A program made the translations under genes and the position numbers. A DNA stretch of 64,000 nucleotides from Tomitella gaofuii (GTDB lineage: Bacteria > Actinomycetota > Actinomycetes > Mycobacteriales > Mycobacteriaceae): the NCBI RefSeq assembly GCF_014126825.1, contig NZ_CP059900.1, positions 62,001 through 126,000 of the forward strand. Reading direction: 5' to 3'. Shown one piece after another: positions 29,176-37,417 of the stretch (positions are counted from its first letter, which is position 1; each line of letters opens with the position of its first letter). Below the pieces are notes generated by a model. That model searched no databases, had not been told where the DNA came from, and saw nothing but the letters and a program-made list of their open reading frames with translations.

Positions 29176-30628
29176 GGCTCTTCAACTTTTAGAGTGCGTT
29201 GATGCGTTCTGCGAGTTGGCCGGAGTGCAGCAGTGACCGCAAGATGTAGTGGTCGAGGTTGCGGAAGCCCTGGGCGATGCCGCGGAGATGTTCCAGGCGG
29301 CCGTTGACGGCCTCGACGGGCCCGTTGGAGACGCCGGTGTCGAAATACGCCAGGATCTCCTTGCGGCGGGCCCACAGGCTGCGGCCGAGCTGGGCGAGCT
29401 CGTCCAGACCCGGGGGCAGGCCCTTGTGGATGCGTTTGAGGACCATGAACATCAGTATCTTGCCGTCGCGGCGTTGCGGATGCTCGTAGGCGGCGATCAT
29501 CTGCTGATACACCTGGTGGGTGATCTCGACCGCGACATGGTCGTCATGGCTGGTCAGCGACTCGGCCAGCAGGTCCTTCTGCGTGTCGGTGAGCAGCTCG
29601 ACGCGGGTGTGCAGGATCCGGCGGATCTTATAGAGAGGATCGTCTTTGCGGCCGCGGTGCCCGCACGTGGCCTGCTGGATGCGGGTACGGCATCGATCGA
29701 GCTTCTCGCCAGCCAACTGCACGACGTGGAACGGGTCCATCACGATCCGCGCCCGCGGCAGTTCCTCGCCGGTGGCGGTGCGGTAGCCGGCGAACCCGTC
29801 CATCGCCACCACCGTGATCCTGTCACGAAACGCCTGGCCGCGGCTGATCATCCAGTCTTGAAGTACTTTCTTGGACCGGCCGGCGATCATGTCCAGCAGC
29901 CGTGCCGGTCCGGTGCCGTCCACGGCCGGAGTCAGATCGATCAGGACCGTCACCCAACTCGAATCACCCTGCCCGCGCACATGTTTCCATTTGTGCTCGT
30001 CGACGCCGAGGTGCCGTACGCCGTCGAGATGGCCGCCGTCGTAGACCATGGTCCGGGCGGCGTCGACGGCGATCTGGTTGACGGTCTTCCAGGCGATGCC
30101 CAGGTTGGCGGCGACCGCGGCGACGCTCATCTTGTCGATCGCGATGCGCTGCAGGATCCACCGCTCGGTCCGGGTCGTGACCACCGACCGCGGCGACGCG
30201 ATACCGGTGATGTCCGCACGGAAGATCGACCGCGGGCACCCCGCGGTCAGGCACACGAAGCGCGGCACGGCGACGTGCAGCTCGACCGGATGCCCGGCAG
30301 CCGGGGTGTCGGTGAGGACCCTTTCGGCATGATCGCGTAGTTGACCTGGGATTCGGCACTCGGGGCACCGCGGGTCGGGGCCGATGACGCTGCACCAGAT
30401 GTGCGTGCGGTCCTCGCTGTCGGCGGCTGCTCCGGTGATCGTGACGCCGAGTTCGACGGTTCGGCAGATCGTGTCGGCGACGGTGTCAGTACAGTGCAAG
30501 GCGGGTCCTGTGGTGGTCGATGGGGAGCTTCGCAACTCTCATCTTCACACCGCAGGACCCGCCTACATGTTGTGGTCCCCACTCACCTCACTGGACACCC
30601 GTCCACGCACTCTGCATTCCGTAGAGCC
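29176..30628 (-). mobile_element. ISL3-family insertion sequence (1453 bp)
   Basis: A complete element: ends begin GGCTCTTC (29176) and, read inward from the other side, GGCTCTACGG, with shared AGAGTGCG further in, giving an imperfect inverted repeat of about 25 bp. It is bounded by an identical 8-bp duplication and contains one transposase gene. It interrupts a lipoprotein gene. The clean duplication suggests a fairly recent insertion. Confidence 0.9.
29189..30535 (-). CDS. ISL3 family transposase
   Basis: 448 residues. The N-terminal zinc-finger region has CPEC...C...C (RCPECRIP, FVCLTAGCP). A helix-turn-helix follows (MSVAAVAANLGIAWKTVNQI). The DDE catalytic core has Asp in HLGVDEHKWKH, Asp in VVAMDGFAGYR and Glu in VEAVNGRLEHLRG. 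Length and order match ISL3 transposases. The predicted TTG start at 30535 is uncertain; homologues usually begin near DTICRTVELG, about 20 residues in. It appears intact and probably active. Confidence 0.92.
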   Translation of the reverse strand: MRSSPSTTTGPALHCTDTVADTICRTVELGVTITGAAADSEDRTHIWCSVIGPDPRCPECRIPGQLRDHAERVLTDTPAAGHPVELHVAVPRFVCLTAGCPRSIFRADITGIASPRSVVTTRTERWILQRIAIDKMSVAAVAANLGIAWKTVNQIAVDAARTMVYDGGHLDGVRHLGVDEHKWKHVRGQGDSSWVTVLIDLTPAVDGTGPARLLDMIAGRSKKVLQDWMISRGQAFRDRITVVAMDGFAGYRTATGEELPRARIVMDPFHVVQLAGEKLDRCRTRIQQATCGHRGRKDDPLYKIRRILHTRVELLTDTQKDLLAESLTSHDDHVAVEITHQVYQQMIAAYEHPQRRDGKILMFMVLKRIHKGLPPGLDELAQLGRSLWARRKEILAYFDTGVSNGPVEAVNGRLEHLRGIAQGFRNLDHYILRSLLHSGQLAERINAL

Positions 30629-31235: not shown

Positions 31236-31276
31236 TGTCAAGTCCCGAGTTTGGTGGAGGCTGATCGGTTGTTCAG

Positions 31277-31786
31277 TTAGGTTGTCGCCGCGGCGGGTTG
31301 CGTCGTGTTCTCGCGCTTCCAGTAGGCGGCTTCGTACTCGGCCGGCGGGACGTAGCCGAGCTCGCTGTGCAGGCGATCGTTGTTGTACCAGGACACCCAT
31401 TCGGCGGTGGCGTACTCGACGTCCTCGGCGCATTGCCAGCGGTATCGGTGGATCAGTTCGTGCTTGTACAGCGAGTTCAGCGCTTCGGCCATCGCGTTGT
31501 CGTACGCATCCCCGCGGGAACCCACGGAAGTCACCGCACGGGCTTCGGCGAGGTGCTCGGTGTAGCGGATAGCCCGGTACTGCACTCCGCGGTCCGAGTG
31601 ATGGACGAGACCAACGACGCTGTGCCCGTATCGTTTCCGGTTCCATAGTGCCATCGCGAGCGCATCGATCGCGAGGTCGGCGAACATGCGCGTCGAGGAC
31701 TGCCAGCCGACGATCATGCGCGAGAACACGTCCAGGACGAACGCGACGTACACCCAGCCGGCCGCGGTGCGGACGTAGGTGATGTC
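31277..31786 (-). pseudogene. IS3 transposase orfB, 3' part (after RIT insertion)
   Basis: This part begins with the DI codons of the catalytic ADIT motif (GACATC, 31786-31781), then TYVRTAAGWVYVAFVLDVFSR. It carries the second Asp (LVHHSDRGVQY) and the Glu (NAMAEALNSLYKHELI) of the DDE triad and the closing WVSWYNNDRLHSELGYVPP. It joins in frame with the 5' part at 35598-35182 when the RIT element is removed. Inactive as it stands. Confidence 0.85.
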
Positions 31787-31871
31787 CTATGCCGACCTCG
31801 GGACTATGCCGATCATCCGGGTGAGGGGGCAGGTCAGCCGGATGCTGGGAGTTGAAAGGTCGGCATAGTCA
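31781..31871 (+). repeat. RIT element left terminal inverted repeat (91 bp)
   Basis: It begins at the core GATGTC and runs inward to GGTCGGCATAGTCA. Compared with the reverse complement of 35071-35161 I count two mismatches. It contains short internal repeats of the type CTATGCCGA/TCGGCATAG that may be recombinase-binding sites. Confidence 0.88.
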
Positions 31872-31919
31872 GGTCGTCGGGGCGACGCTTCAGGCACAGG
31901 TTGCCTGGAGGTGAGGTCA

Positions 31920-33158
31920 ATGACGCAGAGATCTGCGACGGCGCGGCCGTATGCGGACCGGGTTCCGCGGATACCGGTGGGGCCCTTGGCATCGACAGTG
32001 CTGGAGGAGTGCCGACGGTGGCTGGTGGCACAGGGGTATTCGCCGGGCTCATCGACCCCGGTGGTGAACCTGCTGGCACGCCTGAGCGTGTGGATGCAGG
32101 AGGTCGGTGCCGGGATCGACGACATCGACGAGGAGCTGCTGGACCGGTTCGTCGTCCGGGAACGATCTCGGGTGGTCGTGTGCACCACGGTGAAGTGCTC
32201 CTGGAACACGATGCGCAAGTTCTTGACCGCTGCCGGGTACCTGGCCCCGGCCCCGGGCGAGGTTGACCCGGTCACGCCGGCGCAGGTCGCGGTCACGACA
32301 TGGTGCTCGTGGATGCGGTACGAGTGCGAGCTGAGCGAGCAGACCATCAATGCTCGTCGCCGTTACGCTGGCGGGCTGCTGGAGGCGATCACCGGAGCCG
32401 ACGGCAGCCTGGACTGGGACAGGCTCGACACCGACGTGGTCAATGATTACGTCGCCGGGCGTGGTCGCCCCTACGGTCAGGCGGCGCGTGTTCATATCGT
32501 CGGCGCGGTCCGCAGCCTGCTGCGTTGGGCGTTGAGCACCGGCCGTCTCGATCGGGATATCAACGCCGGGATCCTGCAGCCTGCCTCGACCGGGCGCGGG
32601 TTGCCGAAAGGAGTGAGCAGCGAGCAGGTCGGTGCCCTGCTGGCCGTGTGCGATCCTGCCACGCCGATCGGGGCCAGGGACCGCGCGGTCATCACCGTCC
32701 TGGTCCGCCTGGGCCTGCGCGCCGGTGAAGTCGCCCGCCTGCGGCTGGAGGATATCGACTGGGCCAACGGGACACTGAAGGTCACCGGTAAGGGCCGTGA
32801 GCACGCGCTGCCGATCCCTTGCGACGTCGGTCAGGCGCTGACGGTCTGGCTTCGGGTGCGCCCGGCCGCCCTGGACCGGGCGGTGTTCGTGCGGATGCGG
32901 GCACCACGGAAGATGATGACGACCCAGGGGCTCTCCGGGATCGTCGCCCGGCTGTCCGGCCTGGCGGGGATCGACCCCATCTACGCTCATCGGCTGCGGC
33001 ACACCGCGGCGATGGACGTCCTGGCCGCCGGCGGGACCCTGACCGAGGCCAGGGAACTCCTCGGCCACGCCTACACGGTCACCACGATGTCCTACGCGAA
33101 GGTCGACCTGGTCTCGCTGCGCGAGCTGGCCGTCCCGTTCGGGCAGGTGCCCCGATGA
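31920..33158 (+). CDS. ritA: RIT tyrosine recombinase A
   Basis: 412 residues. The N-terminal SAM-like core-binding domains (about 20-210) lead to the catalytic domain: first Arg in LGLRAGEVARL, HRLRH box, the His in LLGHAYTVTT and the nucleophile Tyr in MSYAKVD. CTGGAGGTGAGG before the ATG at 31920 decided the start over a GTG nine bases upstream. It is longer than RitB and RitC, as in known trios. The stop overlaps the next ATG, so the three proteins are probably produced together. Confidence 0.9.
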   Translation: MTQRSATARPYADRVPRIPVGPLASTVLEECRRWLVAQGYSPGSSTPVVNLLARLSVWMQEVGAGIDDIDEELLDRFVVRERSRVVVCTTVKCSWNTMRKFLTAAGYLAPAPGEVDPVTPAQVAVTTWCSWMRYECELSEQTINARRRYAGGLLEAITGADGSLDWDRLDTDVVNDYVAGRGRPYGQAARVHIVGAVRSLLRWALSTGRLDRDINAGILQPASTGRGLPKGVSSEQVGALLAVCDPATPIGARDRAVITVLVRLGLRAGEVARLRLEDIDWANGTLKVTGKGREHALPIPCDVGQALTVWLRVRPAALDRAVFVRMRAPRKMMTTQGLSGIVARLSGLAGIDPIYAHRLRHTAAMDVLAAGGTLTEARELLGHAYTVTTMSYAKVDLVSLRELAVPFGQVPR

Positions 33159-34087
33159 CGACTCTTCGCCAGCACCTGGGCCGGTACCTGGCGCTGCGCC
33201 GCGATCTGGGCTTCCAGCTCGACGACGTCGAACGTCAGGTCGGACTGTTCTGCACCTGGCTCGAAGCTCGTGGCCAGGTGGACACCTTCACCATCGAGGA
33301 CGCGGTGACCTGGGCCCGGGCCAACCCCGAAGCGCATCCGTCGTGGTGGGCCACCCAGCTGTCGCTGGTGCGCCGCTTCGCGGCCCACCTGCACGCCAAC
33401 GGTGTCGACGTGCCGGTCATCCCCTCCGGGCTGCTGCCGGCCCGCAAGCCGCGGGCGGTGCCCTTCATCTACAGCCAGGACGACGTCGACGCCCTCCTTG
33501 TCGCCTGCGAGGCCGAGTTCACCGACGAACGGATCGCGGCCACCGTGCGCACCGTCATCGGGCTGCTGGCGTGCACAGGCCTGCGGATCGGCGAGGCGCT
33601 GGCCCTGGGCGTCGACGACGTCGACCTCGACAACCACGTCCTGGTCGTCCAGGCCGGCAAGTCTGCCCAGCGGCTCGTGCCCGTGCACCCCTCGACCATC
33701 ACAGCGTTAGAGGACTACCTGGCCCTGCCGGCCCGGGTGGCCACGAATCCCGACCCCCACGGCCCGGTCTTCGTGACCGCCAAGGGCACCGGGTACGTCT
33801 ACGTTTCCTTTTACGCCCTGTTCAAACGAGCCCGCGAGGCTGCCGGCCTCCTCCCACGCGGCAGGGCCCGCCCCCGCCTGCACGACCTGAGGCACACCTT
33901 CGCCACGGCCCACATGACCGCGGCCTACGCCCACGGCCACGATCCCGAGCGGGTCCTGTCCCTGCTGGCGACCTGGCTCGGGCACTCCGACGCCGCGCAC
34001 ACCTACTGGTACCTGACCTCGACGGCGGACCTGATGGCCCTGGCCGCCGGCCGACTCGAACCCGCCGACGAGAGCGAAACCTCATGA
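33155..34087 (+). CDS. ritB: RIT tyrosine recombinase B
   Basis: 310 residues. It has the N-terminal arm and core-binding region (LALRRDLGFQLDDVERQVG), then the catalytic domain with Arg in TGLRIGEALAL, HDLRH, His in WLGHSDAAHTY and Tyr in YWYLTS. The ATG overlaps the ritA TGA and its own TGA overlaps the ritC ATG. All catalytic residues are present, so it should be active. RIT recombinases are thought to act together at one site. Confidence 0.9.
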   Translation: MTTLRQHLGRYLALRRDLGFQLDDVERQVGLFCTWLEARGQVDTFTIEDAVTWARANPEAHPSWWATQLSLVRRFAAHLHANGVDVPVIPSGLLPARKPRAVPFIYSQDDVDALLVACEAEFTDERIAATVRTVIGLLACTGLRIGEALALGVDDVDLDNHVLVVQAGKSAQRLVPVHPSTITALEDYLALPARVATNPDPHGPVFVTAKGTGYVYVSFYALFKRAREAAGLLPRGRARPRLHDLRHTFATAHMTAAYAHGHDPERVLSLLATWLGHSDAAHTYWYLTSTADLMALAAGRLEPADESETS

Positions 34088-35073
34088 CCGCCCTGGCTAC
34101 CAGCCTGCAGACCTACTTCACCACCTTCGCCCGCACCCAGCGTGACCTGTCGGCGAACACGATCAGCTCCTACCGCGACACCTGGCGGATGCTGCTAAAG
34201 CACCTGAGTACCACGCTAGGAACCCCGGTCGACGCCCTCGACCTGGAGGACCTGACCGCGGCCAACGTCACCGCCTTCCTGGAGCACCTGCAGCACGAGC
34301 GCGGCAACAACGCAAAGACCCGTAACACCCGTCTGACCGCGATCCGCTCGGTCCTGGCCCGTGCCCTGCCCGACCATCCCGAGCACGCCGCGACCATCAC
34401 CCAGGTGCTTGCAATCCCACCACGGCGCACCACCAGGCCCGTCATCGAGTTCCTCACCCCCGCCGAGACCCAGGCCCTGCTCAACGCGCCCGACCAGCAG
34501 ACCTGGACCGGGCATCGCGACCACGCGCTGCTCCTCATGGCTGTGCAGACCGGACTTCGCGTCAGCGAGATCACCTCGCTGACCTACGACGACATCCACC
34601 TCGGCTCCGGACCCCACATCGCCTGCACCGGCAAGGGACGACGCCAGCGCATCACTCCGCTGACGAAGACGACAGTGACCACGATGACGAACTACCTCAC
34701 CGAGCGCAGGTCCCGACTCGGGAACGCGCTGTTCTGCGGACCGCACGGACAACAACTGTCCCGCGACGCCCTCGAGCGCCGCCTGGCCCGACACGTCAGC
34801 ACCGCCACGACCACCTGCCCCAGCATCGGCGCCAAGCACGTCACCATGCACACCCTGCGACACACCGCAGCGATGAACCTCCTCGCCGCAGGCGTCGACG
34901 TCTCCGTCATCGCGCTCTGGCTCGGCCACGCCGACACCCACAGCACCGCCGCCTACCTGCACGCCGACATGGCCACCAAACAAGCCGCCCTCGACCGGAC
35001 CCGACCACCAGACGTCACCCCCGGCACCTACCAGCCCGCCCCCGACCTCCTGGCCTGGCTCACCGCCCTATGA
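34084..35073 (+). CDS. ritC: RIT tyrosine recombinase C
   Basis: 329 residues. N-terminal core-binding domain (TFARTQRDLSANTISSYRDT), then Arg in TGLRVSEITSL, HTLRH, His in WLGHADTHST and nucleophile Tyr in AAYLHAD. The start overlaps ritB by ATGA. Its TGA (35071-35073) is the first three bases of the right inverted repeat, so coding sequence runs exactly to the element end. Confidence 0.9.
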   Translation: MTALATSLQTYFTTFARTQRDLSANTISSYRDTWRMLLKHLSTTLGTPVDALDLEDLTAANVTAFLEHLQHERGNNAKTRNTRLTAIRSVLARALPDHPEHAATITQVLAIPPRRTTRPVIEFLTPAETQALLNAPDQQTWTGHRDHALLLMAVQTGLRVSEITSLTYDDIHLGSGPHIACTGKGRRQRITPLTKTTVTTMTNYLTERRSRLGNALFCGPHGQQLSRDALERRLARHVSTATTTCPSIGAKHVTMHTLRHTAAMNLLAAGVDVSVIALWLGHADTHSTAAYLHADMATKQAALDRTRPPDVTPGTYQPAPDLLAWLTAL

Positions 35074-35161
35074 CTATGCCGACCTTTCAACTCCCAGCGT
35101 CCGGCTGGCCTGCCCCCTCACCCGGATGATCGGCATAGTCCCGAGGTCGGCATAGGACATC
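35071..35161 (-). repeat. RIT element right terminal inverted repeat (91 bp)
   Basis: Reverse complement of 31781-31871 with two mismatches. It starts at the ritC stop codon and ends with the core hexamer GACATC. Confidence 0.88.
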
Positions 35162-35187
35162 TAATGCCGACGTCGGCATTAGATGTC
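35156..35187. repeat. 32-bp perfect palindrome at RIT right end
   Basis: A perfect inverted repeat whose left arm is GACATCTAATGCCGAC. It lies between the right inverted repeat and the resumption of IS3 sequence. The left junction has only a single GATGTC. The extra 26 bases may have been carried from an earlier insertion site. Confidence 0.8.
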
Positions 35188-35598
35188 GGCGACCCACAGC
35201 TCGTTCAGACCGTCTGCGGTGAACTCGCGCTCGACTCGGTCGTCGGGGCGGTCGGTCTCCGGCGCGAGGCGTGGCCTGTGCGGGAACTTGCCGCGCACGA
35301 CACCGCGTATCCCGAGGTCGCGGCAGAGCCGTTCCACGGTGCACTGGGCGACTTTGGTGCCGCGTCGGCGCAGTTCGGCGTGGATCTTGCGGATGCCGTA
35401 CACCTGCTTGGAGTCGTTGTAGATCTCCATGATCAGCTCTGTGAGCTCGCCGTCCCGTACGGCGCGGGCCGAGGGCGTGCGCTGCTTGGCGGCGTAGTAG
35501 GTCGAGGGGGCGATCGGGCAGCCGTGCTCGGTGAGCACTCTGCAGATCGGCTCGATTCCCCACTCGTGCTTGTGGTCGTCGATGAACGCGACGATCAC
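35182..35598 (-). pseudogene. IS3 transposase orfB, 5' part
   Basis: About 139 codons from the GTG at 35598: IVAFIDDHKHEWGIEPICRV, the HTH-21 region KQVYGIRKIHAELRRRG and GLNELWVADI, which holds the first catalytic Asp. It then hits a TAA within the RIT end palindrome. The GTG overlaps the orfA stop (TGA), so the full transposase is probably made by frameshifting or coupling. Continues in frame at 31786. Confidence 0.85.
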
Positions 35599-35915
35599 CG
35601 ATGTGGGCGGTCGAGCTCCGCCGCGAAGAAAGCCGATGCGGACTTCAGGATGTCGTTGGCGCGGCGCAACTCCCGGTTCTCCTGCTCGAGTTGGCGGATC
35701 CGTTCCAGGTCGGACACCGTGGCCAGGCCGGGAAGGTCGGCCTGGCCGGACTCGACTTGTTTGACCCAGTTGCGCAGGGCTTCAGGATGCACGCCGAGTT
35801 GTTCGGCGATCCGCCGGATCGCGCCGGTGCGCGTCTCGGGGTCCTTGCGGGCCTCGACGGTCATGCGGGTGGCGCGGTCGCGGAGCTCGGCGGGGTACTT
35901 CGATGGGCGGGGCAT
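35595..35915 (-). CDS. IS3 family transposase orfA
   Basis: 106 residues: MPRPSKYPAELRDRATRMT, HTH region IRRIAEQLGVHPEALRNWVKQ, then the leucine-zipper helix RIRQLEQENRELRRANDILK. This is the standard IS3 OrfA (DNA binding and dimerisation). It precedes the split orfB. Confidence 0.9.
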   Translation of the reverse strand: MPRPSKYPAELRDRATRMTVEARKDPETRTGAIRRIAEQLGVHPEALRNWVKQVESGQADLPGLATVSDLERIRQLEQENRELRRANDILKSASAFFAAELDRPHR

Positions 35916-36128
35916 GGAGGAGCGGTCCTTCCGTGTTAACTACCCTCCATCAAACCCGAGACGGTTCATGCTGTCCGATCTGTGCGGGGTTGGTCACGCT
36001 AATCGGCATTAGCGCACACACCCTCGCAACCCCGCCGGTGAGCACGGTTTCCGCCCGCGACGGCGGTACGGGCCGGCCTCATCGGGGCAACGCCGCAGCG
36101 TCACGTGACGTTGCAGGACTGGCGGGGG

Positions 36129-36956
36129 TCAGTGCGCACGGAGGCGTAGTCGGGTGACCGCGCGTTGAAAGGCGGCCGCGTGCCGGCCGATCGCGTTCTG
36201 CTCGGTGCGGCGCGGGTCTATGTCATCACCGGTGCCGTCATCGCGGCGCCGCAGCCACATCGCGTAGTTCTCGATGTCGCGGCCGAACTTGGACGGGTAC
36301 ACGATGCCGTGGGCAAGCGACCCGTCGTCGAGCACCTGGCCGCGCAGCCACCCGGCGACGGTCGTGGTGAGCAGGCGGGCCGCGGCACCATCGGCGGTCA
36401 GGTGCGACAGCTGGAGCTCGTCGATCCCGTGCTCGTCGGCCAGGGTGCTGCGCAGCTGCTTGTCGAGAACGCCGATACTGTCCGACGCGGTGACGTCGAC
36501 GAACCAGCCGACGGTAGGCAGCTCGAACTCGTAGATGGCGCGGATCTCCCGCCAGTGCTTCGACACCGAGCGTGCCGCCATACCGCCATGCGCGGGCAGC
36601 TCGTTGGCGATCTGTTCGTGCAGGAACAGATCGTCGTCGGCGGTGACGTCGTCGAAGACGTCGGACATCGTGATCGGGGACGTCTGATCCGGTTCGATGT
36701 AGGAGAGGACCTCGAGCAGAGCGCCCTGCCCGGTGCTGCCCGCGTAGATGGTGCGTCCGAGGGTGTCCCAGCGGCTCCACTCATCCCGGGGGACCGCTGT
36801 AGTTGCCCGCTCCGGTATCGGCCGCAGTGGCGGGTCGAACGGTCCGCGCCCCGTCCTGGCGACGCGGTACACGGTCCGGCCAGCGCTGGCCGCCAGTACG
36901 AGGCCTGTCCGGGCGCAGATGCGCGGCGCTGTCGGCGCCGGATCGGGGGTGGGCAC
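36129..36956 (-). CDS. RES-domain toxin (long form)
   Basis: 275 residues, longer than the usual 150-220. It has the RES signature: Arg31 in VYRVAR, Tyr71 and Glu82 in YAGSTGQGALLEVL, and Ser222 in GIVYPSKFG. RES toxins (MbcT, ParT and relatives) degrade or modify NAD+ or ADP-ribosylate targets. The paired antitoxin gene lies 71 bases upstream on the same strand, the usual antitoxin-first order. A ~100-residue insertion between the Tyr/Glu and Ser motifs is unusual. Confidence 0.82.
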   Translation of the reverse strand: MPTPDPAPTAPRICARTGLVLAASAGRTVYRVARTGRGPFDPPLRPIPERATTAVPRDEWSRWDTLGRTIYAGSTGQGALLEVLSYIEPDQTSPITMSDVFDDVTADDDLFLHEQIANELPAHGGMAARSVSKHWREIRAIYEFELPTVGWFVDVTASDSIGVLDKQLRSTLADEHGIDELQLSHLTADGAAARLLTTTVAGWLRGQVLDDGSLAHGIVYPSKFGRDIENYAMWLRRRDDGTGDDIDPRRTEQNAIGRHAAAFQRAVTRLRLRAH

Positions 36957-37027
36957 GTGCGCGCGGCCTCCTCCTACTCGCTACATGCGGACGAATAGGA
37001 GTATAGGAATCCCGCGCTTGCAGCGTG

Positions 37028-37417
37028 TCAGGCGTAGTAGTCGTCGTTGACGAACGCGCCCGCTGCTGCGTACACGGATTTGGCGTCGTTGCTGCGGATG
37101 AGGTCCGCCGGGGTGGCCCCGTCGAAGCGCGGGTTCGCCGAGATCAGCCAGGATCGGGCGACGTACTCGTCGTCGGCGTCGGCGATCGCAGTGAACACGG
37201 TGTGCGCCAGCTTAATGCGCTGCACCTTGGCGTCGGCGGGTTCCGCATGCCCCCGCTCGGTGGGAGGCGTGGCCCACTTCCGCGGCATCGACCGGCTCCG
37301 CGAACCGGCCATGTAGGCGACCAGCGTCGGCCCCAGGCGGTCGAGGAGGTACTGGACGACCTCGTGGATCGGCATCCTGGTCGTATCGGTGTGGTGACGG
37401 GTCAGGGTGTCTGTCAT
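37028..37417 (-). CDS. Xre/MbcA/ParS-type antitoxin (partner of RES toxin)
   Basis: 129 residues: an N-terminal DNA-binding helical region (PIHEVVQYLLDRLGPTLVAY), a middle helix block, and the C-terminal toxin-binding domain ending ANPRFDGATPADLIRSND followed by a short helix and DDYYA, matching the DUF2384/MbcA pattern (NP.LdG.tPadll). AGGAGG lies about 9 bases before the ATG at 37417. It likely neutralises the RES toxin and represses the operon. Confidence 0.8.
   Translation of the reverse strand: MTDTLTRHHTDTTRMPIHEVVQYLLDRLGPTLVAYMAGSRSRSMPRKWATPPTERGHAEPADAKVQRIKLAHTVFTAIADADDEYVARSWLISANPRFDGATPADLIRSNDAKSVYAAAGAFVNDDYYA

Follow-up and report, generated by a model that had tools for sequence, protein, structure and literature searches.

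The 64,000-nucleotide stretch of Tomitella gaofuii DNA analysed here (contig NZ_CP059900.1, positions 62,001 to 126,000; hereafter, the window) contains, at positions 31781-35187, a complete RIT (recombinase in trio) element, in which the genes ritA, ritB and ritC lie between inverted ends. The element interrupts orfB of an insertion sequence (IS) of the IS3 family, and its parts are as follows.

31781-31786, forward strand: outer core at the end without the spacer, GATGTC (GACATC on the IS coding strand)
31787-31871, forward strand: left inverted end, beginning CTATGCCGACC
31911-33158, forward strand: ritA, tyrosine recombinase, 415 aa (PF00589, E 5.6e-28; XerD-like, residues 137-406)
33155-34087, forward strand: ritB, tyrosine recombinase, 310 aa (PF00589, E 9.5e-21; XerA/XerD-like)
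34084-35073, forward strand: ritC, tyrosine recombinase, 329 aa (PF00589, E 4.8e-34; XerD-like, 3.1e-21)
35071-35155, forward strand: right inverted end, finishing GGTCGGCATAG
35156-35161, forward strand: inner core GACATC, the mirror of the outer cores and the proposed trace of an earlier insertion
35162-35181, no strand: 20-bp palindromic spacer TAATGCCGACGTCGGCATTA between two cores, found at the same place in relatives with callable ends
35182-35187, forward strand: outer core at the spacer end, GATGTC

A preliminary description of this DNA had recognized three overlapping tyrosine recombinases within 91-bp inverted ends, and its coordinates and gene overlaps were borne out; all three genes match Phage_integrase (PF00589). 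The inverted arms (31781-31871 and 35071-35161) are 91 nt long and 98% complementary, and the element spans 3.38 kb. Adjacent rit genes share 4-nt ATGA overlaps (ritA/ritB at 33155-33158, ritB/ritC at 34084-34087), and the ritC stop lies inside the right inverted arm, so that there is no further gene downstream within the element. Arg/His boxes followed by a later Tyr were read by eye in the translations of all three recombinases (HRLRHTAAM, HDLRHTFAT, HTLRHTAAM; RitC was also aligned to XerD), and to judge from these translations the catalytic residues are present in RitA, RitB and RitC. With three overlapping tyrosine recombinase genes, inverted terminal repeats and a length near 3.5 kb, the element is a RIT. 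Its right end is a perfect 32-bp palindrome (16+16, positions 35156-35187), in which the inverted core, the palindromic spacer and the outer core follow one another in that order.

The interrupted IS3 has the following parts.

31236-35968, reverse strand: IS3-family IS split by the RIT, about 1.33 kb long when the RIT is left out (extent aligned against the second genomic copy, exact 3' end by eye; transpos_IS3)
35595-35915, reverse strand: IS3 orfA (PF01527 HTH_Tnp_1, 3.5e-12)
35182-35598, reverse strand: N-terminal part of IS3 orfB, ending ..ELWVA-D-I at the core (transpos_IS3, 91-223 of 369)
31277-31786, reverse strand: C-terminal part of IS3 orfB, from D-I-T-Y-V.. (transpos_IS3, 233-369 of 369, for 31277-31753; rve in the joined protein)

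The IS that received the RIT thus has the orfA and orfB of an IS3-family element, with HTH and rve domains. The half open reading frames (ORFs) that flank the RIT match a single NCBIfam model (transpos_IS3) and meet on it at the insertion; when the flanks were joined over one GACATC they gave a single open frame of 367 codons, in both genomic copies of the element, which agrees with the earlier claim that removal of the RIT restores orfB in frame. GACATC (Asp-Ile) is the insertion point, as had also been described, and the rve domain of the joined protein begins there; this Asp is presumably the first residue of the catalytic DDE triad. We think it likely that the element is a transposable RIT which inserts site-specifically at the first catalytic Asp codons of IS3-type transposases, by a mechanism that uses a two-core palindromic attachment (att) site.

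The preliminary description had pointed to other copies in the genome as informative, and a search of the window's 4.35-Mb genome (G000) yielded a second copy of element and IS at G000:C1:1734875-1738799. There the RIT occupies the same codons of a second copy of the same IS with its rit genes reversed relative to the IS, and despite this opposite orientation the spacer is on the orfA side in both genomic copies. The two RIT copies differ by 1 substitution and 17 inserted or deleted bases; the latter break the rit frames of the second copy (G000:C1:1734901-1738288) and may reflect sequencing or assembly errors in a repeat. Between the two IS copies there are 8 substitutions in 1330 aligned bases and no insertions or deletions; four of the substitutions fall within five bases, and one lies at the 3' end or immediately beyond it. 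Had the RIT diverged at the IS rate, it should show 12.7-20.3 substitutions, versus the 1 observed (P of at most one, 4e-5 to 3e-8). Because the IS copies differ more than the RIT copies, the RIT is, on this comparison, younger than its IS hosts at these two places, through its own movement or through gene conversion. The genome has three exact matches to the 14-mer GACATCACCTACGT, two of them being the RIT-occupied IS copies; when 511 bp of the IS, taken from its C-terminal part, served as a query, no uninterrupted copy turned up in this genome, only the two occupied copies and one 67% partial match.

The two genomic copies might also stem from one insertion, if an IS::RIT composite had been duplicated and its body inverted via the 91-bp repeats or the two inverted cores. 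Both copies share the IS type and the site, an inversion would leave the spacer exactly in place, and in a related genome, G341, two IS::RIT copies separated by 4.9 kb are identical in their near flanks. We regard such a single insertion as rather unlikely, given that divergence is greater between the host IS copies than between the RIT copies (an effect that gene conversion could also produce) and that the same motif is used in unrelated IS elements of relatives, which makes the choice of site independent of these two copies.

Site-specific insertion at the IS3 motif was also found in G341, a genome of the same family, where five RIT copies were read (RitC 79% identical). Four of the five are at the first-Asp motif of IS3 transposases, and the fifth (L037) lies in a gene without a match in Pfam, the one database searched for it, at a site that reads GGC-GAC-NNN-ACCTAC, like the IS3 sites. 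Two of the IS3 insertions have identical near flanks and lie about 4.9 kb apart (L035:2444-10734; G341:C1:2800943-2809233), as if the composite had been tandemly duplicated; in another (L036; G341:C1:4023500-4032500) the flanks are halves of different IS3 transposases, perhaps through recombination between RIT copies or att cores. An uninterrupted IS in G341 (L161) is identical to an occupied copy (the first of two in L035) over 806 bp to the left and 526 bp to the right of the core. The uninterrupted core reads GACATC, and the occupied copies have GACTTT at the spacer end and GACATC at the other end; because of this, the element appears to have brought its own core to the spacer side at that site. 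IS3 genes with the same site empty are annotated in both Streptomyces plasmids opened (L151, L152), so that uninterrupted, in-frame IS3 copies with this site occur both there and in G341.

The named relatives with RitC identity of at least 73% (L054-L060, L068 and L097) gave a similar picture. The first-Asp codons of IS3 genes are occupied in L055 (rve on both sides), L097 (rve), L058 (IS3 model 99-223), L057 (HTH_21 only), and L059 and L068 (both by eye). The element in L060 is in an IS481-like gene (35.8 bits, under that model's cut-off), and in L054 and L056 the sequence stops at the element and carries no target information. The same IS3 codons also hold a RIT remnant, with core GATATA, in an Arthrobacter plasmid (L150). 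Within the window's clade the GAC of the core is constant (GAT in that remnant), the next three bases are ATC, TTC, TTT, ATG or GAC, and the cores at the two ends of one element may differ. The proposal that GATGTC/GACATC is a sequence-specific core therefore holds in part: related elements repeat the IS3 site, and the core is only part of the target, its last three bases being variable. Sites of close relatives likewise share the DNA motif, the one in the non-IS gene of L037 included, and other clades use other motifs. In one of the relatives (L055:1338-8072) a RIT is nested in a RIT, the inner element lying in the outer ritB near the HDLRHT catalytic box (by eye).

For a wider survey we scanned 80 genome-contig loci, 20 stretches of G-labelled genomes (one of them the window's own), 5 viral loci and 11 plasmid regions. 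Because the genome-contig loci were picked by a RitC alignment made from the window's clade, they lean towards near relatives (of 154 matching stretches 114 were relatives, and 80 were kept; two contigs are present twice, as L038/L060 and L052/L064); the plasmid regions were opened from 60 listed among 517 plasmid records with a match. Loci L034-L149 gave 125 trio-like hits, 102 of them with all three genes. Ends with a spacer were called in 50 elements including the window copy, and, the call for L090 being spurious on inspection, 49 were used for targets; these 49 count both L035 copies, and the statistics on cores (45 elements) and on the ritA or ritC side of the spacer (49 elements) keep L090 and count L035 once. 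No RIT ends were called in the viral contigs, among 5 RitC-alignment matches (23-35% identity). Choosing the target frame by the longest ORF failed in high-GC genomes, and third-codon-position bias plus motif reading were used instead.

The called spacers have 8-10 of 10 palindromic pairs, and all ten in 28 of 49 elements. The spacer is on the ritA side in 25 elements and on the ritC side in 24 (including the spurious L090, and L035 once). By reference to the target motif it is always on the same side, in 36 of 36 elements from 11 target classes with at least two members (L090 dropped, L035 counted twice), and the rit genes point both ways in 9 of those 11 classes; 2^-25 for a constant spacer side is no true probability, the elements being related. 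Among the 45 complete cases, 23 have the same outer core at both ends, and 16 of these 23 also carry that sequence, in mirror image, as the inner core. Similarity between inner and outer cores was 5.47 of 6 versus 2.04 on shuffling, with a maximum of 2.77 in 2000 shuffles (43 of the 45; two IS1634 repeats from the same genome excluded). Where the outer cores differ, mismatches fall at position 6 in 15 of the 22 elements, at position 1 in 2 and at position 2 in 3. A search for element-free spacers in G000, G341 and G281 (up to 2 mismatches) gave 3, 5 and 5 positions, of which 2, 5 and 4 are at mapped RIT loci; the leftover matches, one in G000 and one in G281, each have 2 mismatches.

The anatomy, the repeated sites, the fixed spacer side with free body orientation, the occupied and uninterrupted copies and the differing cores, all read from DNA sequence, are consistent with the following mechanism. 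RitA, RitB and RitC would excise or copy the element as a circle, with a junction palindrome in the order right inverted repeat, inverted core, 20-bp spacer, core, left inverted repeat. Such a junction would amount to a pair of inverted Xer-like sites, in each of which GTCGGCAT-type arms enclose a 6-bp overlap, and one of its cores would recombine with the 6-bp core of a target, a GACNNNAC-type motif. The gene body could land either way round because the junction is symmetric, and the spacer would fall on a fixed side of the target motif because the core is polar. The inner core would keep a record of an earlier insertion, and the ends would differ when the carried core and the target core differ. 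The recurring target would be the codons of conserved, often catalytic motifs common to many transposases. Within this model we infer the circle, which recombinase cuts what, whether the element copies or cuts, and which end keeps the target's core, the last having been seen at one site only.

If the inner core were active, a second recombination there would swap the spacer and its flank for the opposite half of another target, leaving the same half of a target on both sides of the element. Three elements without a spacer have such flanks: IS3 C-halves on both sides in L055, IS256 N-halves in L090 and IstB N-halves in L086 (in the last two the right side by Pfam and the left by eye); this fit was noticed after the fact. 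A reciprocal product of inner-core recombination was not found among the part of the no-spacer loci that was read. A lone 20-bp spacer palindrome without a RIT lies at L128:10369 by IS256-like sequence (by eye); it could be a footprint or a rearrangement product, and it could not be fitted into the two-core model.

Alternatively, the 20-bp palindrome might fold as a single strand into a hairpin and so determine which strand is used, like integron attC, and would then not act as a spacer between duplex sites. Full pairing in 28 of 49 elements speaks for a hairpin, and strand-biased circles are reported for the strand-biased circularizing integrative elements (SE; PMC10214605). Both half-sites, however, resemble ordinary inverted recombinase sites that enclose a 6-bp overlap, and the three spacer-less elements have the flanks expected of an active inner core; we consider a hairpin unlikely, slightly more so than the single insertion weighed above.

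Targets could be assigned in 45 of the 49 mapped elements. IS genes made up 32 of the 49: IS256 (10), IS1634 (7), IS3 (6), IstB (2), ISL3 (2), and one each of IS5, IS701, IS481, another rve gene and IstA. The others were tyrosine recombinase, group II intron reverse transcriptase (RT), HEPN and SRAP genes (2 each), and single cases of an AAA ATPase, TrbI, an ArdC-type zincin, DUF7220 and the L037 gene. No target was found for L054, L070, L096 and L132, though their ends were called; the right flank of L070 resembles an IS3 C-terminus by eye and has no family match. We compared 30 junction proteins with Pfam and 10 with NCBIfam, and ten further stretches with each of the two. Among the 30, five had no Pfam match (L060, L065, L037, L144 and the L085 fragments), four had matches below the curated cut-off (L049, L062, L063, L078) and L141 matched only generic HTH families; the IS1634 cut-off was passed by L049, L062, L065 and L069. 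The L144 target matched SRAP (Pfam) among the further stretches, IstA in L141 rests on the record's annotation and weak NCBIfam matches, and the L085 target had no family match in any Pfam or NCBIfam search made. Three of the ten IS256 targets (L071, L087, L095) were assigned from a short motif on the C side, seen by eye, and the remaining ones of the 45 from motif signatures written after the junctions were read. Placed by hand outside the 49 were L053, both elements of L055, L057, L058, L060, L061, L068, L076, L085, L086, L090, L097, L128, L150 and L042 (L068 and the inner L055 by eye, L085 with no family match, L042 with no family search).

The targeted codons are, by what we take to be their motifs, the first Asp of IS3 and IS1634, Walker B of IstB, RC..H of IS256, YADD of the RT, HExxH of ArdC and the boxes of tyrosine recombinases. 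Because the non-IS gene in L037 carries the same GGC-GAC-NNN-ACCTAC motif, targeting seems to follow the DNA sequence at motif codons, clade by clade, rather than IS identity, and the genes hit are mostly, not exclusively, those of mobile elements. What had been put forward as a rule about IS3 thus applies to the close relatives, which use the IS3 motif, and other RIT clades use other motifs. The idea that the family targets IS and spares host genes survives as a tendency and not as a law: 32 of 49 targets are IS genes, and L037 (an apparent host gene) and the SRAP and HEPN targets are not. In SRAP genes, recognized by Pfam in L144 and by motif in L094, the N-terminal Cys codons are where one clade inserts; a Srap protein is part of SE elements (PMC10214605).

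A preponderance of IS genes would also result if RITs had no true choice of target, inserting widely and surviving only in dispensable multi-copy genes such as IS. IS genes tolerate disruption, and some IS are present in RIT neighbourhoods: among 20 control ORFs, taken from 50 candidates 3 kb outside element ends, there were 2 transposases and 1 weak MULE match, and 5 had no match. IS genes at 32 of 49 targets versus 2 of 20 neighbours gave a Fisher p of 3.5e-5 (1.7e-4 counting the weak match), a rough comparison, the control being smaller and scored by Pfam only, with ORFs unchecked as genes. Against survival as the sole filter stand the repeated use of the same codons, with an unchanged spacer side, in different IS3 transposases and across 11 target classes, and the position of the apparent host-gene insertion in L037 at the same DNA motif; we take this rival to be very improbable. 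We are somewhat inclined to see RITs as a family of site-specific parasites of other mobile elements, in which each clade would read a 6-bp core and flanking bases in conserved, often catalytic codons of one gene family, via a symmetric two-core att palindrome with a fixed spacer side, a free body orientation and the core of an earlier target kept.

Several observations weigh against the mechanism proposed for the window element. No circle, excision or new insertion was observed, possible movement being suggested by the near-identical second copy and the uninterrupted IS in a relative; as both genomic copies are in the same IS, gene conversion or inversion in situ could mimic independent insertion, and the third GACATCACCTACGT site in the genome is empty. 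The L037 target is, read by eye, the apparent gene of a host secreted protein. In 22 of 45 elements (21 of 44 when L090 is dropped) the two outer cores are not the same. The mirrored inner core is identical to the one at the non-spacer end in 9 of these 22, to the one at the spacer end in 4, and to neither in 9; this 9-to-4 excess is not expected from the model and hints that in some lineages it may be the spacer side that holds the target's own core. L128, with an IS256 N-half on the left and no IS match on the right, does not fit the rule for elements without a spacer. The end-caller demanded a palindromic spacer (at least 7 of 10 pairs), so that the anatomy is partly selected; 17 loci have an inverted repeat and no called spacer, several being contig ends, and no ends were called in 6 of the 11 plasmid RIT regions (L140, L142, L145-L148), including all 3 from betaproteobacteria, the lineage of the first RIT descriptions. 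The two-core anatomy accordingly would hold for elements with callable ends, the uncalled loci, betaproteobacterial plasmid RITs among them, lying outside it.

Some of these features have parallels in other mobile elements. In Tn916-type conjugative transposons the 6-bp overlap need not match and donor-derived coupling sequences are carried along, as in the RIT model; they differ in having little target specificity, one recombinase and a conjugation module. Inteins and homing introns offer an analogy, as they also lie in the most conserved active-site motifs of widespread genes; they differ in that they splice out, spare the host gene and use homing endonucleases, whereas RITs disrupt the gene and use recombinases. 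Elements of the SE and Tn554 type likewise encode several tyrosine recombinases and have a 6-bp spacer at their junction, and in SE one end receives the 6 bp of the target and the opposite end the 6 bp that the element carries, which is also the arrangement at the one G341 site; SE differ in their genes (intA-tfp-intB-srap), in imperfect repeats of 13-19 bp, in generating no empty site and, in the accessible text, in having no double core described (PMC10214605, 2023). The fourth conserved gene of SE, GInt and Tn554 operons (srap/ginD/tnpC) is not present in the window element.

RIT elements have been described as overlapping tyrosine recombinase genes in the order A-B-C, of about 3,500 bp (PMC3414803, 2012; C. 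metallidurans CH34 genome, PMC2864759, 2010), with insertions in IS66 tnpA, a Tn6049-related transposase and radC, and with ends, called variable, that consist of a '28-9 bp' inverted repeat and an overlapping, unexplained palindrome flanking ritA and ritC. The window element has the same gene trio and size; the target rule, the double core and the polarity are absent from those accounts, as far as their accessible parts go. Extra features of RitA and RitC are noted in what is accessible of PMC8138268, RITs are unmentioned in PMC6210171, and their target specificity is listed as not formally tested in the accessible part of PMC10214605. We did not find the target rule or the att anatomy in the searchable literature; they might stand in Ricker et al. 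2013, Van Houdt et al. 2009 or Nielsen et al. 2017. The element is therefore of a known kind, and the target rule and two-core att anatomy seem to be new as far as checked.

Around the interrupted IS3, the window has an ISL3-family transposase at 29189-30535 (PF01610, 2.3e-53) and, at 35997-36014, just beyond the IS3 end, an inverted repeat (CGCTAAT-CGGC-ATTAGCG) that resembles half of the RIT spacer. At 36129-37417 an Xre/MbcA/ParS-type antitoxin gene adjoins an ORF that resembles a RES-domain partner (by eye; no Pfam match), and RES pairs are annotated near the RITs in L141 and L145 too.

RITs were named by 2010, with their ends and target choice left open in the accessible papers. The pattern described here gives a concrete, testable rule for RIT ends, target and polarity, and offers a reason for the recurrence of RITs inside transposase genes. 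A retained inner core would let an element's earlier target be read from its sequence, and RIT insertion would be a natural disabling of insertion sequences at a motif that is hard for them to change.

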